Shown in pieces: positions 3,094 to 38,363 of a stretch of DNA of 43,205 nucleotides. Every line of letters starts with the position of its first letter. Position 1 is the first letter of the stretch. This DNA comes from a virus. Where the stretch lies: positions 1 through 43,205 of the IMG/VR virus record IMGVR_UViG_3300026078_000045. One strand, given 5' to 3'. The notes beneath the pieces were generated by a model. It searched no databases and was not told where the DNA came from. It saw only the letters and a list, made by a program, of their open reading frames with translations. The position numbers were made by a program, and so were the translations under genes.

Positions 3094-3300
3094 ATGAGAC
3101 GCAGAGCACTGCACGAGGGCACTCGCGACGAAATCCTGGCCGAGCTCGACGACGCCGGTCTGAGCCGCACCCTGGGCGCGCTCGTCCACGGCGGCAGTCA
3201 GGAGAAAGCCGAAGCGATCGGTGAGGCGTGGCGGCAGATCCGCGACGGCGGGACATGGGTCGAACTCGAGTACAACGTGTACCGCGTCGTCGAAGGCTGA
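3094..3300 (+). CDS. Small protein divergent from the integrase (68 aa)
   Basis: It begins with ATG at 3094, 99 bases from the divergent integrase start, and has no clear Shine-Dalgarno. The protein is mostly helical and charged (RDEILAELDDAGLSRTLGAL) with a C-terminal WVELEYNVYRVVEG. No family is recognised. Small genes beside serine integrases sometimes encode the directionality factor for excision; that is one possibility here without direct evidence. Confidence 0.6.
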   Translation: MRRRALHEGTRDEILAELDDAGLSRTLGALVHGGSQEKAEAIGEAWRQIRDGGTWVELEYNVYRVVEG

Positions 3301-3445
3301 GCGGCCAACCAGCAGCGCGCGGATCCTCCCCGCGCGACCGGGAACCGGCGCGCCAGGCTTCCATCAGGGCCCTACTGGGAATACGGTGGGTGAGCCTGCC
3401 GCATCGGTGGGTGATCATAATTCCACAGACCACGAAGGGACCGTG

Positions 3446-3880
3446 ATGGTGCAAACCACACGGAGAAGGCCTTTCGGCTCCGGCGGAGTCGAGCCTTCTC
3501 TCACCGCCCAACCGCCGGGGCTCGTCCCCAGCGAACCACCCCGCGCCGGCTGCCCCATCAACCCGCGCCCCCGGAATCTCCCCGAGTACCAGGCCGCATG
3601 CCGCGCCGCACAAGGTGACGACGTCGCCGAACGCAAGGCCTGCGAGATCGTGCCCGGCGCCCACCTCTACCACGACGGCCGGTTCCTGGACGTCGTCGGC
3701 ATCGACCGGCTCGACCCGCACGGTGACGTCGAGCTCCGGCTCGCCAGCGACGACGGCCTGCACGTGGTCCGCGTCGTACCGACGAACACCGCCGTGTACG
3801 TCCTCGCCCCGACCCCCGACGCCATCCACGCGCCGGGCGCCGGGGCGCCTGAGAGTGAGTCTACGGCGGCGCGCCCATGA
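3446..3880 (+). CDS. Hypothetical protein, accessory region (144 aa)
   Basis: ATG at 3446 follows an AAGGGA. The N-terminal half is Pro-rich and probably disordered. The C-terminal half (about 75-125) has a beta-rich pattern around GAHLYHDGRFLDVVGIDRL and HVVRVVP..TAVYVLA. The stop overlaps the start of the next gene (ATGA), so the two form an operon. A TGATCATAAT stretch just upstream (3409-3418) could hold a promoter. Function unknown; it is in the part of the phage where lysogenic cargo genes usually sit. Confidence 0.6.
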   Translation: MVQTTRRRPFGSGGVEPSLTAQPPGLVPSEPPRAGCPINPRPRNLPEYQAACRAAQGDDVAERKACEIVPGAHLYHDGRFLDVVGIDRLDPHGDVELRLASDDGLHVVRVVPTNTAVYVLAPTPDAIHAPGAGAPESESTAARP

Positions 3881-4116
3881 CCCAGGAGTGGAGTCCGAAG
3901 GAACGCGCGGACCTGCTACGGCACGGCGTGGTACTCGACACCATCACAAAGCTCGAGCTGGCCGGCTACAGCACGCTTGCCCAGCTCGCCCAGCTCGACC
4001 GGCAGCAGCTAAAGGCCATCAGTGGCGAGCGGGGCGCGGTCGACGTCCGGCGCGCGCTCGGCCGGCTGATGGACATCGCGGCGGCGGACCCGGCTACCCG
4101 GCGGCGGGTGCCATAA
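3877..4116 (+). CDS. Small protein with a helix-hairpin-helix-like segment (79 aa)
   Basis: It overlaps the previous gene by ATGA. The middle reads LELAGYSTLAQLAQLDRQQL followed by KAISGERG, which resembles the DNA-binding helix-hairpin-helix of the RNA polymerase alpha C-terminal domain type (L..GY.TL..L..L....L..I.G). The family is not certain. A strong hairpin terminator follows at 4149. Confidence 0.65.
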   Translation: MTQEWSPKERADLLRHGVVLDTITKLELAGYSTLAQLAQLDRQQLKAISGERGAVDVRRALGRLMDIAAADPATRRRVP

Positions 4117-4148
4117 GCGACGGAGGCAACTGACCCGAACACGACCAC

Positions 4149-4176
4149 GACGCCCGGCCCGATGCGGCCGGGCGTC
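4149..4176. terminator. GC-rich hairpin between convergent genes
   Basis: GACGCCCGGCC and GGCCGGGCGTC form a perfect 11-bp stem with a 6-base loop. It lies between the rightward operon ending at 4116 and the leftward gene ending at 4188, so it can serve both. No T-run follows, as is common in actinomycetes. Confidence 0.75.
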
Positions 4177-4187
4177 GGCGTGTCCGG

Positions 4188-4364
4188 CTACAGCGATGCT
4201 TCGAACATCGCGACCGGCGCCTTCAACGTCTCCGCGGGCGGCACGATCCGGCGCAACGTACGATCCGCATGCTCCGACAGCGCGTCCAGCGGCACGGAGC
4301 GCACGTCAGCGACCTGCGTAGCGCTCCGGGCCATGCGGGGCACCGACTCCGGGTTCGGGAGCAT
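4188..4364 (-). CDS. FxSxx-COOH (FxsA)-like small peptide precursor, candidate
   Basis: The 58-residue protein starts at ATG 4364 with GGAGG seven bases upstream. Its second half, VADVRSVPLDALSEHADRTL then RRIVPPAETLKAPVAMFEASL-COOH in pattern, resembles the actinobacterial FxSxx-COOH precursors: a D(V/L)R..PL..L block, an L.RI.P helix and a P.A.F..S. end. FxsA peptides are thought to be modified by a radical SAM enzyme, FxsB. Oddity: the last five residues are FEASL, so Ser is in the fourth place and not the third. No maturase is encoded in the window. It could instead be an unrelated small orphan. Confidence 0.45.
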   Translation of the reverse strand: MLPNPESVPRMARSATQVADVRSVPLDALSEHADRTLRRIVPPAETLKAPVAMFEASL

Positions 4365-4517
4365 CACAGGCCTCCAGCAAGATCGGTGGGGCGCCCCGGA
4401 ACTGGAGGGGCACCTCAGGATACGGGGCGGGGCGCTCCGGGAAAGCCCCCAGCCGCTACCGATCAAGACGGGGCGGCGGTACGGTCAGGCCACTGAATCA
4501 GGCACCGAGGGGGGACG

Positions 4518-4997
4518 ATGGATCAGGACTACGACGTGCGACCCGCAGCCGCCCCGGCCACACGCCGCGGCTTCGGCCCCGGCATCCTCGGAGCCGTCGC
4601 CGCGGCTGCCCTGGCCATCGGCTTCGGCGCCGGCTGGCTCAGCCACACCACCAACAGCACCACCAGTAAGCCAAGCGGCGCAACAACCTCGGTCCACGGC
4701 ATGCTCCAGCTCAGAGACGGCAACTACAGCAGCGTCGGCAACACCTGCTCCGGCAACGGCGGCTACCAGGACATCTCCGGCGGTGTCGCCGTCACCATCG
4801 GCGACCAGACCGGCAAGACGCTCGCCGTGACCAGCCTCCAGCCCGGAGCGTTCGGCGGGGGCGGCTGCCAGTTCACGTTCGCCGCTCAGGTCCCGGCCGG
4901 CGCGACGCTCTACACCGTGACGATCAGCCACCGCGGGACGCAGACCTTCGGGCCGGCCGACGTGGTTGGTGGTTTCAACATGACGCTCGGCACCTAG
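4518..4997 (+). CDS. Exported or membrane-anchored hypothetical protein (159 aa)
   Basis: ATG at 4518 follows a GAGGGGGG. Residues about 20-45 form a hydrophobic segment (GILGAVAAAALAIGFGAGWL) that could be a signal anchor. A Ser/Thr-rich linker follows, then a beta-rich extracellular domain with two Cys (TCSGNGGY and GGCQFTF) that could pair. Actinomycetes have many small exported proteins of this C..NGGY.DI kind. Within a prophage this suggests a lysogenic-conversion gene. Its stop overlaps the stop of the convergent gene (CTAG, 4994-4997). Confidence 0.8.
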   Translation: MDQDYDVRPAAAPATRRGFGPGILGAVAAAALAIGFGAGWLSHTTNSTTSKPSGATTSVHGMLQLRDGNYSSVGNTCSGNGGYQDISGGVAVTIGDQTGKTLAVTSLQPGAFGGGGCQFTFAAQVPAGATLYTVTISHRGTQTFGPADVVGGFNMTLGT

Positions 4998-5437
4998 TCC
5001 GGGACCTTCTCCTCCAGCATCCGCAGCTGCACCCGCAGATCCCCGATCTCCGCGCGCTGCGCCTGGATCACTGCATCCCGCTCCGCCATCTCCCGCTGAT
5101 GATCCCGATCCAGCGCCGCACGCTCCGCGGCGACCTCCGCGCGGAACGCCGCGAAGTCCTCCTTCATCTGGATCAGCTCAGCCTGCGCTTCCCGTACCTC
5201 CCGATGCGCGGCCGACGCCTTCGCCTCCGCATAGTCCGCATCCGCGCGGGCACTCTCCACCGCATGCCGCGCCGCACCCTGGACGGTCTGCACCGCCTCT
5301 GCGGCGGCGTGCTGCAGCATCAGCTCGGCGTTCGCATCCGTCGACCGCCGCTCCGAACGGGCCTTCAGCATCGCCGGAAGCCCAGTGATCAGCGCGCCGA
5401 TCACGCTTCCCAGCGCAACCAGCAGCGCCTCGTTCAT
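4994..5437 (-). CDS. Membrane-anchored coiled-coil protein of the lysis cassette
   Basis: The 147-residue protein has an N-terminal membrane segment (residues 5-24, LLVALGSVIGALITGLPAML) and then a long Ala/Glu/Arg-rich coiled coil to the end. It is the last gene of the lysis cassette and overlaps the PAS gene by ATGA. The layout would suit a second holin-like or envelope-spanning lysis accessory protein, but no family is recognised. The stop codon lies in the CTAG that also ends the convergent gene. Confidence 0.75.
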   Translation of the reverse strand: MNEALLVALGSVIGALITGLPAMLKARSERRSTDANAELMLQHAAAEAVQTVQGAARHAVESARADADYAEAKASAAHREVREAQAELIQMKEDFAAFRAEVAAERAALDRDHQREMAERDAVIQAQRAEIGDLRVQLRMLEEKVPD

Positions 5438-5838
5438 GCCTCCTGGCCTCCAGGCTCAGCCGCCGTCCGGCGCACGGTCGCGATGGCGAAGTTCCCGTCG
5501 GGAGCTGTCAGCCACGCGAGGTTGATCTCGACTGGGATCAGGGATCCGTCCGCGTGGACCATCTCCAGCCGCATCCCGGCCCCCATCGGCCGGGTGTGCG
5601 GGTCCTGCATGTAGGAGCCGCGGTAGCGTTCGTGCTCTGACTGCAGCGGCGGCGGCACCAGATCCTCGATCGGCCGGTGCAGCAGGTCGGATTCGGTGTA
5701 GCCGGTCAGCAGCGACGCCCGCTCGTTCACCATCCGGATCCGGCCGGTCGCGTCGACCACGATCAGCGGATCGGGCATCCGTTGAAGCACGTCCGGAGCG
5801 AGCGTGAATTTCAGCCTGTTGTCCTCATACAAGGACAT
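5434..5838 (-). CDS. Stand-alone PAS-domain protein inside the lysis cassette
   Basis: The 134-residue protein starts at ATG 5838, overlapping the holin-like stop by one base (TGATG). Residues about 15-125 form one PAS domain: MPDPLIVVDATGRIRMVNER, LTGY...LL..PIEDLVPP, then HADGSLIPVEINL and a final ATVRR strand. PAS domains bind small ligands, haem or flavin, or mediate protein contacts. No kinase, cyclase or DNA-binding output domain is present. It sits in an unbroken overlap chain endolysin, holin-like, PAS, membrane coiled coil, so it is made with the lysis proteins. Its role is unknown; a modulator of lysis timing is an inference. Confidence 0.88.
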   Translation of the reverse strand: MSLYEDNRLKFTLAPDVLQRMPDPLIVVDATGRIRMVNERASLLTGYTESDLLHRPIEDLVPPPLQSEHERYRGSYMQDPHTRPMGAGMRLEMVHADGSLIPVEINLAWLTAPDGNFAIATVRRTAAEPGGQEA

Positions 5839-6074
5839 CAGGACGCACCGGGCGGTGTAGGCGGGTCTTCCGGCGCCGGGGCCGGGGCCGCGGACCCCGT
5901 CGGCAGCGGCGCGACCGGGAATGCCTGCCGGATACCGGCCTCGACCGCGCCCGGAAGCACGGTCCATATCGACCCCCAGCTGACCTGTCCGCCACGTGCC
6001 AGGAAGTCGGCGGCAAACGCCAGCGCGGTGAACCGGGCGAACCGCAGTAGCTGAGCCTTCAGGTGCGGGCTCAT
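5838..6074 (-). CDS. Holin-like small protein
   Basis: The 78-residue protein overlaps the endolysin stop (ATGA). It has two hydrophobic stretches (FTALAFAADFLARGG and WGSIWTVLPGAVEAGIRQAF) and a Pro/Ala-rich tail. The pattern and place directly after the endolysin resemble short actinophage holins with two membrane segments. The hydrophobicity is modest, so membrane insertion is not certain. Confidence 0.6.
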   Translation of the reverse strand: MSPHLKAQLLRFARFTALAFAADFLARGGQVSWGSIWTVLPGAVEAGIRQAFPVAPLPTGSAAPAPAPEDPPTPPGAS

Positions 6075-6403
6075 CGGTGCGTCGCCTCGATCAGGTAGGA
6101 CAGCGGCACGTTCTCGCTACCTGCGAGCCGCGTGATGCTGATCTTCTGCACGCCGGTCGGCAGCGGGCCGCCGAACGGGTTCACGCGGTCGCCAGCCGCC
6201 GGCACCAGGAAGTCCTGCGTGAAGTCGGTCCAACCCAACCCGTGGACGAAGGCGGCCACCCGGACGTGGGCGTCGCCGAAGTCAGAGCCCAGGGAGAACC
6301 ACACGTCCCCCCAGCCGGCCCGGCCGGCGTTCGCTGGCGGAGGGCACACCACCGTGGTGACCCCGGCGCCGGGCCTGATCTCTCCAGTGCTGAACGTGGG
6401 CAT
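6071..6403 (-). CDS. Candidate internal product: endolysin C-terminal domain alone (110 aa)
   Basis: In frame inside the endolysin, ATG at 6403 is preceded by GGAGGACGAC, a strong Shine-Dalgarno at ideal spacing. It falls exactly after the linker and before MPTFSTGEIRPGAG. Several known endolysins make a separate wall-binding subunit from such an internal start, giving a hetero-oligomeric enzyme. Here this is predicted from sequence only. Confidence 0.5.
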   Translation of the reverse strand: MPTFSTGEIRPGAGVTTVVCPPPANAGRAGWGDVWFSLGSDFGDAHVRVAAFVHGLGWTDFTQDFLVPAAGDRVNPFGGPLPTGVQKISITRLAGSENVPLSYLIEATHR

Positions 6404-7033
6404 GTCGTCCTCCGGATCTGTCGAGGAAATAGCTGGTGGCGCCGGGTTCGGCGCGGGTTCCGGGCTCGAGCTCCAGACGCCGAGGCCGGACAGGTTGATG
6501 ATCTCGTTCACGTCGACCTGGACGCCGCCCACGTAGCGCTGCTCGCCGGTCTGTCGGGCGACCGCGCGCGGATCCCACTGGCCGCCGGACCATGCGACGG
6601 TCTGCCACGCGGTGAACCCCGCGGCGTCGGCCGCCGTCACCACTCGCAGACCGGCGTAGTCCCCGACCTCGGCTTGACCGTCCACGCTCGCGGCGCCTCG
6701 CAGAAAATCTACGACGGCCGGGGTCTGACCCGCGGAGGCGTTGAAGTCGGCGCTGTAGAAGATCCGCGCCGTGCGCGGGGCGCCAAGTGCGGTGGCCTGC
6801 GCGCGAGCCGAGTGCGCGCAGGCCTGGCCCGCGCTGTAGCCGCCGAGCATGAAGTCGGCGGTCGTCTCGAAGTTCAGCACGATCGCGATGCCAGCGGCCA
6901 GCAGCTCCTGCGCCTCGCTGACGGTCAGATTCTTGGGCCAGCCCGGTACGGACAGGTAGCGGAAGACCACTGAGCAGCCCGCGGCCTTCAGCGCTGCCGG
7001 GGCGATGCGGTCGGTGTAGTCGAAGCCGATCAT
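6071..7033 (-). CDS. Endolysin with DUF1906 glycoside-hydrolase-like domain
   Basis: The 320-residue protein starts at ATG 7033 with GAGGA upstream. Residues 1-186 form a DUF1906 (Rv2525c-like) TIM-barrel domain: GFDYTDR, FRYLSVPG, IVLNFETTADFMLGGYSAGQ, SADFNAS, WQTVAWSGG and VDVNEI. It is expected to cut the cell-wall glycan at the end of infection. A Pro-rich linker (190-205) joins it to a beta-rich C-terminal domain (211-320), probably wall-binding. Codon 211 is an ATG preceded by GGAGG five bases upstream, so the C-terminal domain might also be made alone. Confidence 0.88.
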   Translation of the reverse strand: MIGFDYTDRIAPAALKAAGCSVVFRYLSVPGWPKNLTVSEAQELLAAGIAIVLNFETTADFMLGGYSAGQACAHSARAQATALGAPRTARIFYSADFNASAGQTPAVVDFLRGAASVDGQAEVGDYAGLRVVTAADAAGFTAWQTVAWSGGQWDPRAVARQTGEQRYVGGVQVDVNEIINLSGLGVWSSSPEPAPNPAPPAISSTDPEDDMPTFSTGEIRPGAGVTTVVCPPPANAGRAGWGDVWFSLGSDFGDAHVRVAAFVHGLGWTDFTQDFLVPAAGDRVNPFGGPLPTGVQKISITRLAGSENVPLSYLIEATHR

Positions 7034-36511: not shown

Positions 36512-36817
36512 CTACGGGCGCGGCGCTCTCGCGAGCTTCTCCGCGCCCTTCAGGCACTCCTCGCACTCCGCCATCAGCTCCGCGTCCGGCAGCGCCACAG
36601 CCTGAGCGAGCGGCGTCAGCGGCCTGCGAGGCGCCAGGATCAGGCGGGTCTCGCGCCGGTTGTGCCAGCCGCCGTGACGGCGCGGACAGCGGCCCTGCGT
36701 CCGGGAGTGGGTGGCGCCGCAGCCGCCGGTGCACTCGCACTGCGAGCCGGCGCGGTCGACGACGACGCGGGACCACGACGCCGGGGCGCCGAGGGGGATG
36801 GTGGGAGGCTGGGACAT
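36512..36817 (-). CDS. Candidate internal product: Cys/His-rich tail alone (101 aa)
   Basis: ATG at 36817, in frame in the methyltransferase, is preceded by GAGGAG six bases upstream. The protein would be MSQPPTIPLGAPASWSRVVV followed by the CECTGGCG...C..R zinc-type motif. The site lies right at the border of the methyltransferase domain. It may be a fusion of two formerly separate genes that kept its start. Confidence 0.5.
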   Translation of the reverse strand: MSQPPTIPLGAPASWSRVVVDRAGSQCECTGGCGATHSRTQGRCPRRHGGWHNRRETRLILAPRRPLTPLAQAVALPDAELMAECEECLKGAEKLARAPRP

Positions 36818-37552
36818 GGGGATCTCCTCGAAGAGGGGGACGGCAGTGAGGGCTTCGAGGGGCGCCGCGGCGCTTCCCGTCAGGTGGGCCATCAGGTGGC
36901 GTCCGGCGTACTCCGCGTAGGCCGGCGGGATCGCCTCCCGCAGTGCGAAGTGATCGTCGGTCCAGTCGATGCCCTTCGCCTCCTGCATCTCGGCGACCGT
37001 GGCCTTGCCGCCGCCCTTGCCGTAGGCCTGGACGTAGGGCCCGTCGCGCCACACCCCGTGCCGCCAGCCCCGCACGTAGCCGCGGTGCCTGACGTGCTTC
37101 GGCTGCGGGGGCGTCCAGCCGCCACACTCGAATACGCGGTGCTGGATGACGCTGACGCCTTCGGTCTTGAACATCTCGTTGCACAGCACCAGGTCCCGGC
37201 GTAGGGCCGCCGCGGGCACGTTCTCGATGACCCAGGACAGCCCGCTGGCGATGAACGCCTCGCGGATCGGCGGGATCAGGTCTGGGTGGGTGCGCCCGGT
37301 CGCCGCGTTGCGGGCGGCGTTCGTGCCGAGCGTCGGTGCGGACTTGTTCTGGCACGGCGGGCTGGCGTGGCCTGCGTCGAACTCGTGGCCGTGCAGCTTG
37401 AGGAACTCCACGGCGTCGGCCTGGTGGAACTCGAAGGGATAGTTCGGCCGGGGCTCGATGTCCACGCCGACGACTTCGAAGCCGGCGCGGTGGTAGCCCA
37501 TGGCGGCCCCGCCGTCGTAGCAGCACAGGTCGAGCAGGCGCGGCCGGGTCAC
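36512..37552 (-). CDS. Cytosine-C5 DNA methyltransferase with Cys/His-rich tail (346 aa)
   Basis: GTG at 37552 in a GTGA overlap. Motif I is LLDLCCYDGGAAMGYHRAGF, motif IV holds the catalytic Cys (ASPPCQNKS), motif VI is WVIENVP. No specificity endonuclease accompanies it, so it is an orphan enzyme that may protect phage DNA from host restriction. After residue about 245 an unrelated tail follows with CECTGGCGATHSRTQGRCPR and later CEECLKG, a zinc-type domain common as a separate protein in actinophages. An in-frame start at 36817 may make this tail alone. Confidence 0.85.
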   Translation of the reverse strand: MTRPRLLDLCCYDGGAAMGYHRAGFEVVGVDIEPRPNYPFEFHQADAVEFLKLHGHEFDAGHASPPCQNKSAPTLGTNAARNAATGRTHPDLIPPIREAFIASGLSWVIENVPAAALRRDLVLCNEMFKTEGVSVIQHRVFECGGWTPPQPKHVRHRGYVRGWRHGVWRDGPYVQAYGKGGGKATVAEMQEAKGIDWTDDHFALREAIPPAYAEYAGRHLMAHLTGSAAAPLEALTAVPLFEEIPMSQPPTIPLGAPASWSRVVVDRAGSQCECTGGCGATHSRTQGRCPRRHGGWHNRRETRLILAPRRPLTPLAQAVALPDAELMAECEECLKGAEKLARAPRP

Positions 37553-38007
37553 GATCGGCCCCCGACCCCGGCCGCCGTCCGGAACCAGTCGTCCCACGGC
37601 GCCGTGTGGACGACCTCCAGCACCACGGTGTCGTCCAGCCGCGGCAGCAGCACCGTCGGCGACGGCTGGGCGGTGTGCTCGACGTAGGCCCGCTCCTCGG
37701 CGTGCGCGCGCTGCCGCATCGCCGCGATCGTGGCCCGCGACAACGGCGGCCGGTGCGTCTCGACGTACCGGCGCCGGACGTAGGCGCCGCGGCCGGCGTG
37801 CCAGCCGGTCGAGCAGGCCGCCGAGACCGCCAGGCACAGCGTGAGGAACGCGGCGTAGGCCAGGGCGACCGCTCCGATGAGCGTCGGCGCGTTGCCGCGG
37901 TCGCGGAAGGCTGCGACGCCGACCGCGGCTGCGTCGGCGGCCAGCAGCGTGGCGACGGCGGCGTGGGTGGCGGCGCGACGCCAGGTGCGGTGCGGGTGGC
38001 GGGTCAT
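37549..38007 (-). CDS. Membrane protein (152 aa)
   Basis: ATG at 38007. Two hydrophobic helices (about 12-33, AAVATLLAADAAAVGVAAF; and 42-64, TLIGAVALAYAAFLTLCLAV) are followed by a charged cytoplasmic-type part. Function unknown; an early membrane protein could act in superinfection exclusion. Confidence 0.7.
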   Translation of the reverse strand: MTRHPHRTWRRAATHAAVATLLAADAAAVGVAAFRDRGNAPTLIGAVALAYAAFLTLCLAVSAACSTGWHAGRGAYVRRRYVETHRPPLSRATIAAMRQRAHAEERAYVEHTAQPSPTVLLPRLDDTVVLEVVHTAPWDDWFRTAAGVGGRS

Positions 38008-38363
38008 GATGCGACCTCCCATTCGGCTTGGGCCGCAGCCTCCAGCGCGGCAATGACCTGCTCGGCGGTGCGGTCGGGGTGGTCGTTCCAGTCCGGGATG
38101 GTCCACATGGCGTCGTCGCCAGCGGTACCCAGGCCCAGGAAGCGGGCCAGGGTCTTGACGACAGGAAGCACCTGGCGGACCTCCCGGTTGGTCGGCAGCT
38201 CGGGCGTTCCGCAGACTGCGATCGCCAGCGCGCCCCAGGTGCAGACCGGGCACTCTGCCGCCCGCTTACCGGCCAGCAAGCGGAACATCGAACCTTTGTA
38301 GAAGCCGTTCCGCCGGATCACGTTGGCGGCCTCTTCAAAAACGGCCGCTGTCTCGGCGCTCAT
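38004..38363 (-). CDS. DUF6197-like protein (119 aa)
   Basis: ATG at 38363. It has CPVCTWGALAIAVCG and ends MWTIPDWNDHPDRTAEQVIA then a helix. The WND...RT..EVI..L..A ending is typical for DUF6197, frequent in actinophages. Role unknown. ATGA overlaps on both sides. Confidence 0.78.
   Translation of the reverse strand: MSAETAAVFEEAANVIRRNGFYKGSMFRLLAGKRAAECPVCTWGALAIAVCGTPELPTNREVRQVLPVVKTLARFLGLGTAGDDAMWTIPDWNDHPDRTAEQVIAALEAAAQAEWEVAS

Follow-up and report, generated by a model that had tools for sequence, protein, structure and literature searches.

Predicted heme PAS sensors and sensing in phage lysis

The timing of phage lysis is mostly attributed to an internal clock, and the case in which sensing has been studied is lysis inhibition of the T4 type. 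Sensing in the control of T4 lysis is already known: the antiholins RI and RIII act on the holin T, a condition is sensed and the lysis machinery is affected through a membrane protein (PMC11413866). We liken to this arrangement a stand-alone PAS gene located in the lysis cluster of a soil virus. The likeness is one of function, and RI differs from the PAS protein in that it senses superinfection in the periplasm, is not a PAS protein and has no heme.

Heme PAS sensors are also known, as are PAS proteins annotated in some viruses. The closest solved protein to the phage PAS domains described here is FG214 of Fimbriimonas ginsengisoli, a heme-PAS one-component switch (PDB 10jx, PMC13060918; E-value of 7.5e-28, Z of 16.3) that has in common with them its proximal His and the Met that serves it as an alternative distal ligand. 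Unlike them, it carries a DNA-binding HTH as a fusion. The oxygen sensors FixL and DosP/EcDos likewise resemble them in the heme-PAS fold and axial His, whereas they are fused to a kinase or a phosphodiesterase. Giant and jumbo viruses encode PAS proteins too, but these are mostly multi-domain and kinase-like or larger, with low similarity to ours; the PAS protein of Sinorhizobium phage Phosso has 434 amino acid residues, and no lysis gene is annotated next to it. We found no paper in the open-access literature on PAS domains in phage lysis cassettes or on phage-encoded heme PAS. Relative to the literature searched, the combination of a stand-alone, predicted heme-type PAS gene with a gene for a membrane coiled-coil protein in the lysis clusters of unrelated phages thus appears to be new.

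A PAS gene within an overlapping gene chain of a lysis cluster

The window, by which we mean the whole stretch of DNA analyzed (43,205 nucleotides), is a 43-kb virus contig from a soil metagenome (IMG/VR record IMGVR_UViG_3300026078_000045). Its PAS ORF lies within the cell-bursting gene cluster, on the minus strand between positions 5434 and 5838, where the plus strand is interrupted by a stop, and has a clear coding signal (position-specific GC of 0.69/0.45/0.86). Read leftwards, four genes of the minus strand form a chain of overlaps: a 320-residue endolysin (6071–7033), a 78-residue protein (5838–6074), the 134-residue PAS protein and a 147-residue membrane coiled-coil protein (4994–5437). 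The endolysin, an Rv2525c/DUF1906 glycoside-hydrolase-like protein akin to actinophage lysins (PF08924, E-value of 8.9e-20; phrog_13480, lysis, E-value of 9.2e-22), overlaps the 78-residue gene by 4 nt (ATGA, 6071–6074), which in turn overlaps the PAS gene by 1 nt (TGATG, at 5838). The PAS gene overlaps the 147-residue gene by 4 nt (ATGA, 5434–5437); the start of the latter lies within the PAS stop and is preceded by GGAGG. An earlier note on this DNA, made from its letters and open reading frames, was therefore right to place the PAS gene within a lysis cassette, and the overlap-coupled chain that it described is real.

The same note regarded the two neighbors of the PAS protein as a holin-like protein and a membrane coiled-coil protein, of which the second description holds and the first is weak. 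The 147-residue protein has one N-terminal transmembrane (TM) segment (hydropathy of 2.07), its heptad score points to a long coiled coil, and its AF2 model is a single continuous helix from residue 2 to 144 (pLDDT of 92). By contrast, the holin-like label of the 78-residue protein, which has a Pro-rich tail, is not established because its hydrophobic helix is only weak (best 19-residue hydropathy of 1.08), and Pfam, PHROG and NCBIfam gave no match. When viral contigs were scanned with single sequences, those of the PAS, 78-residue and 147-residue proteins, solely one contig was recovered, which is identical in the stretch that was compared and thus gives no independent evidence. A convergent gene on the plus strand (4518–4997) overlaps the end of the 147-residue gene and encodes a 159-residue protein with one N-terminal TM segment and no family match.

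Elsewhere in the window we identified genes for a serine integrase, a capsid, a tape measure, a RecT-type protein and a portal protein, the nearest relatives of the latter being portals of Streptomyces and other actinobacterial phages. An ORF at 36512–38053 has matches to two families, one of phage DNA methyltransferases and, in its C-terminal part, one of HNH endonucleases. Two features fit the main rival to a role in lysis: an integrase is present, and the PAS gene flanks the lysis genes on the side of this integrase, where cargo is usually found. According to this explanation, the PAS gene is a moron, and the late region is merely where such genes land; its product would heterodimerize with a PAS kinase or cyclic-nucleotide enzyme of the host, or compete for it, thereby altering host oxygen or redox signaling. 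PAS domains readily pair with one another, and the closest cellular relatives of the phage proteins are PAS domains from multi-domain signaling proteins, both of which speak for a moron of this kind. Nevertheless, the gene seems non-autonomous, since it overlaps both of its neighbors and a scan for sites resembling promoters or terminators, weak for such a GC-rich organism, gave none around it. Together with the conserved gene order described below, this leads us to regard host-modulating cargo as less likely than a role in lysis.

A predicted heme-binding PAS domain

That the 134-residue protein is essentially one PAS domain, as first noted from the sequence, was confirmed by matches to PF00989 (residues 17–123, E-value of 4.4e-13, 49.7 bits for a cut-off of 22.6) and TIGR00229 (E-value of 1.7e-15, 57.2 bits for a cut-off of 22.9). 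In its AF2 model (pLDDT of 79.5, about 90 in the core), the order of strands and helices is that of the PAS fold, and the model superimposes on FixL and FG214 with an rmsd of 1.8–1.9 over 110–112 residues. Among NCBIfam models, the generic S-box domain ranked first, followed by those of FixL (37.6 bits) and DosP (22.5 bits), both below their whole-protein cut-offs of 850 and 857, respectively. PADLOC returned no match for the PAS protein and only weak coiled-coil matches for the partner proteins, and hence does not support a role in anti-phage defense.

Comparison with solved proteins narrows the likely ligand to heme, because the nearest matches in the PDB, by sequence and by structure, are heme PAS domains. 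A profile built from 14 phage PAS proteins ranked 14 heme-PAS sequences before all others, with E-values of 7.5e-28 for FG214, 4e-21 for DosP and 1e-19 for FixL, the heme group, including EcDos, extending down to 6e-17. The first match beyond this group, 9qq6, reached 1.3e-8 and covered only the N-terminal half of the domain. Foldseek and VIA-align likewise returned FixL, FG214 and EcDos as top matches to the model (Z of 16.3–15.4). His69 aligns with the proximal heme ligands His200 of FixL and His156 of FG214, and this axial His is invariant across all phage PAS proteins. The near-invariant Met85 aligns with Met172 of FG214, an alternative distal ligand that ligates the heme in a dithionite-soaked crystal (PMC13060918). 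On the other hand, Gly88 occupies the position of His175, the preferred distal ligand of FG214, and Met89 replaces the distal Arg220 of FixL, or Arg97 of DosP. The residue numbers of FixL and DosP (for the latter the axial His77 and distal Met95/Arg97) follow the alignments and what is established for these proteins. Based on these comparisons, the PAS domain of the window probably binds heme, although Gly88 and Met89 may entail a different ligand chemistry or even the loss of heme.

Many PAS domains function without a cofactor. One could thus envision the protein as a cofactor-free, stable adaptor or chaperone of the membrane coiled-coil protein, for instance one that prevents a holin, an antiholin or a spanin from oligomerizing, with purely structural roles for the His and Met residues. 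Consistent with this view, the His is kept throughout the cellular RPMGAGLEL subfamily, close to which FG214 is the only solved heme protein known (PMC13060918). The invariance of the axial His among the phage proteins and the fact that the nearest solved proteins all bind heme make such a cofactor-free role improbable in our opinion.

Output without a fused effector

In the cellular relatives, the last strand of the PAS domain leads into a D-I-T or D-V-S/T motif and then into a linker helix connected to an effector. The window protein stops right after its PAS domain and has no fused effector domain. More generally, 13 of the 14 phage PAS proteins lack D-I-T and carry R-K/R or R-L instead, ending soon after; the exception is the PAS protein of a jumbo phage, which continues into a C-terminal helix and retains D-L-T. 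Judging from these termini, the phage PAS domains seem to be adapted to functioning with no effector attached, and their output would therefore likely go through protein–protein contact. For such a contact, the co-translated membrane coiled-coil protein readily suggests itself. A PAS protein of 227 residues with two extra N-terminal TM helices, hence located at the membrane itself (L016, 4737–5420), fits a membrane role.

The PAS gene and its putative membrane partner in unrelated phages

Using profiles built from the window PAS protein and its cellular relatives, together with the partner scan described below, we searched 2.9 million viral contigs and detected PAS proteins of this type in about 12 further ones (L012–L015, L016, L022, L023/L024, L025, L028/L029, L042 and the 333-kb jumbo-phage contig L017). 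These proteins are stand-alone domains, most of about 124–153 residues. In all non-jumbo contigs that reach far enough, a gene for a short membrane coiled-coil protein comes next after the PAS gene, overlapping it or within about 10 nt. This arrangement was observed in the window, L012–L015, L016, L022, L042, L023/L024, L025 and L028; in L023 (4956–5796) and L024 (1567–2411), two PAS genes in tandem precede the membrane partner. The TM segment of the partner is N-terminal in the window, L025 and L028 and C-terminal in the rest, which are mutually homologous, the one in L023 scoring 1.54, slightly below the threshold of 1.6. A separate search for the partner protein, independent of the PAS profiles, gave six matches, all with a PAS gene upstream, including L042, which the PAS scans had missed. 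No related phage lacking the PAS gene with otherwise unchanged neighbors was found in this small sample. A scan of 85,000 bacterial genomes for the partner protein produced a single match, without a PAS gene nearby, which we judged spurious. No match to the PAS proteins of the window, L012 or L016 was found in 50,697 cultured phage records, and scanning viral contigs with the central block of the PAS domain yielded nothing further.

Location in the lysis cluster, as for an antiholin, is seen in the overlap chain with the endolysin in the window and in the endolysins encoded near most relatives: within 5 kb of the PAS gene we detected a GH24 (L016), an Amidase_2 (L022), an M15 (L042) and GH19 enzymes (L012, L014 and L023). 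No recognized endolysin was found near the PAS gene in L013, L025 or L028, and in L028 the PAS pair adjoins portal and gp7-like genes. Lysis is thus not the context of the PAS pair everywhere, and the proximity of head genes in L028 would suit a moron. The portal protein of L028 (426–3311) bears an intein/LAGLIDADG insertion apparently missing from the sister contig L029, and the gene that follows it (3176–4663) encodes a 2H-phosphoesterase domain with a weak match to anti-CBASS Acb1. In L017 (3587–4423), the PAS stands alone, with a predicted helix after it; it is apparently embedded in tRNA-like antisense sequence, and no membrane partner gene adjoins it.

When about 20 kb surrounding each PAS gene were compared all against all, most pairs of phages had only the PAS, or the PAS and its partner, in common; between the window and each of the other contigs, nothing but the PAS was shared. 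The TerL family PF03354 had no match in the PAS contigs and so provided no measure of relatedness. The recurrence of the membrane coiled-coil gene directly after the PAS gene, in an arrangement kept by otherwise unrelated phages, argues against host-modulating cargo. About 17% of small genes in these phage regions encode TM coiled-coil proteins by a crude calling, and the partners represent about four independent families rather than seven, since four partner groups are homologous. A repeated neighbor of this type is unlikely by chance (0.165^4, about 7e-4), a value that serves only as a guide given the enrichment of lysis regions in such genes.

The dN/dS ratios were approximately 0.10 for L012–L015, 0.02 for both PAS genes of L023/L024 and 0.26 for L022/L042. 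Since these values indicate purifying selection, which is strong on both tandem copies of L023/L024, the PAS gene in the relatives is a maintained gene and not debris. The window PAS itself sits on a long branch (1.64), with a Streptomyces PAS of about 42% identity as its closest relative, as might result if a host domain had been captured by accident and did nothing for the phage. Such an accident is already disfavored by the repeated occurrence of the gene in unrelated phages, by the purifying selection on the relatives and by the retention of active-site-like residues, and we deem it highly improbable. In the PAS tree, 12 of the 14 phage proteins group together with modest support (85/83); given the long branches, the tree gives no firm answer as to whether PAS domains were captured once or several times.

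A possible heme-based control of lysis

The earlier note proposed that the PAS protein could gate lysis through its two membrane neighbors. A sensor-type PAS domain, its translational coupling within the lysis cluster and the recurrent pairing with a membrane coiled-coil protein agree with this proposal, whereas the holin-like label of the other neighbor is weak. Contact between the PAS protein and the membrane coiled-coil protein is plausible because the pairing recurs in unrelated phages.

Our preferred interpretation is that the protein would be a small cytoplasmic heme-b PAS sensor with His69 as the proximal and possibly Met85 as a distal ligand, and that it would be produced late in infection by co-transcription with the lysis genes. 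Having neither effector nor D-I-T linker, it would act only by binding another protein, most likely the membrane-anchored coiled-coil protein that is co-translated with it from the gene directly downstream. The signal would be a shift in the redox state of the heme or the ligation of a gas (O2, NO or CO), which could alter the surface or dimer state of the PAS domain and, through it, the coiled-coil partner, which would then promote or restrain the lysis machinery. Lysis would thereby be tuned to host respiration or oxygen. Taken as a whole, this chain, in which heme-based sensing of redox state or gases would bring lysis forward or hold it back by an action on the membrane coiled-coil protein or by way of it, remains tentative, with a probability of roughly 0.4. 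The broader view that unrelated phages carry a two-gene module, composed of a heme PAS protein and a membrane coiled-coil protein, that times lysis by oxygen, NO or redox is possible but somewhat doubtful.

If this interpretation is true, a lysis switch gated by gas or redox state would constitute a phage decision system undescribed so far, as far as our searches show. It would also represent a minimal two-protein heme-PAS signaling system devoid of a kinase or DNA-binding domain. With such a heme sensor encoded in the lysis operon, the end of the infection would be coupled to host respiration or oxygen, which is a natural variable in soil.
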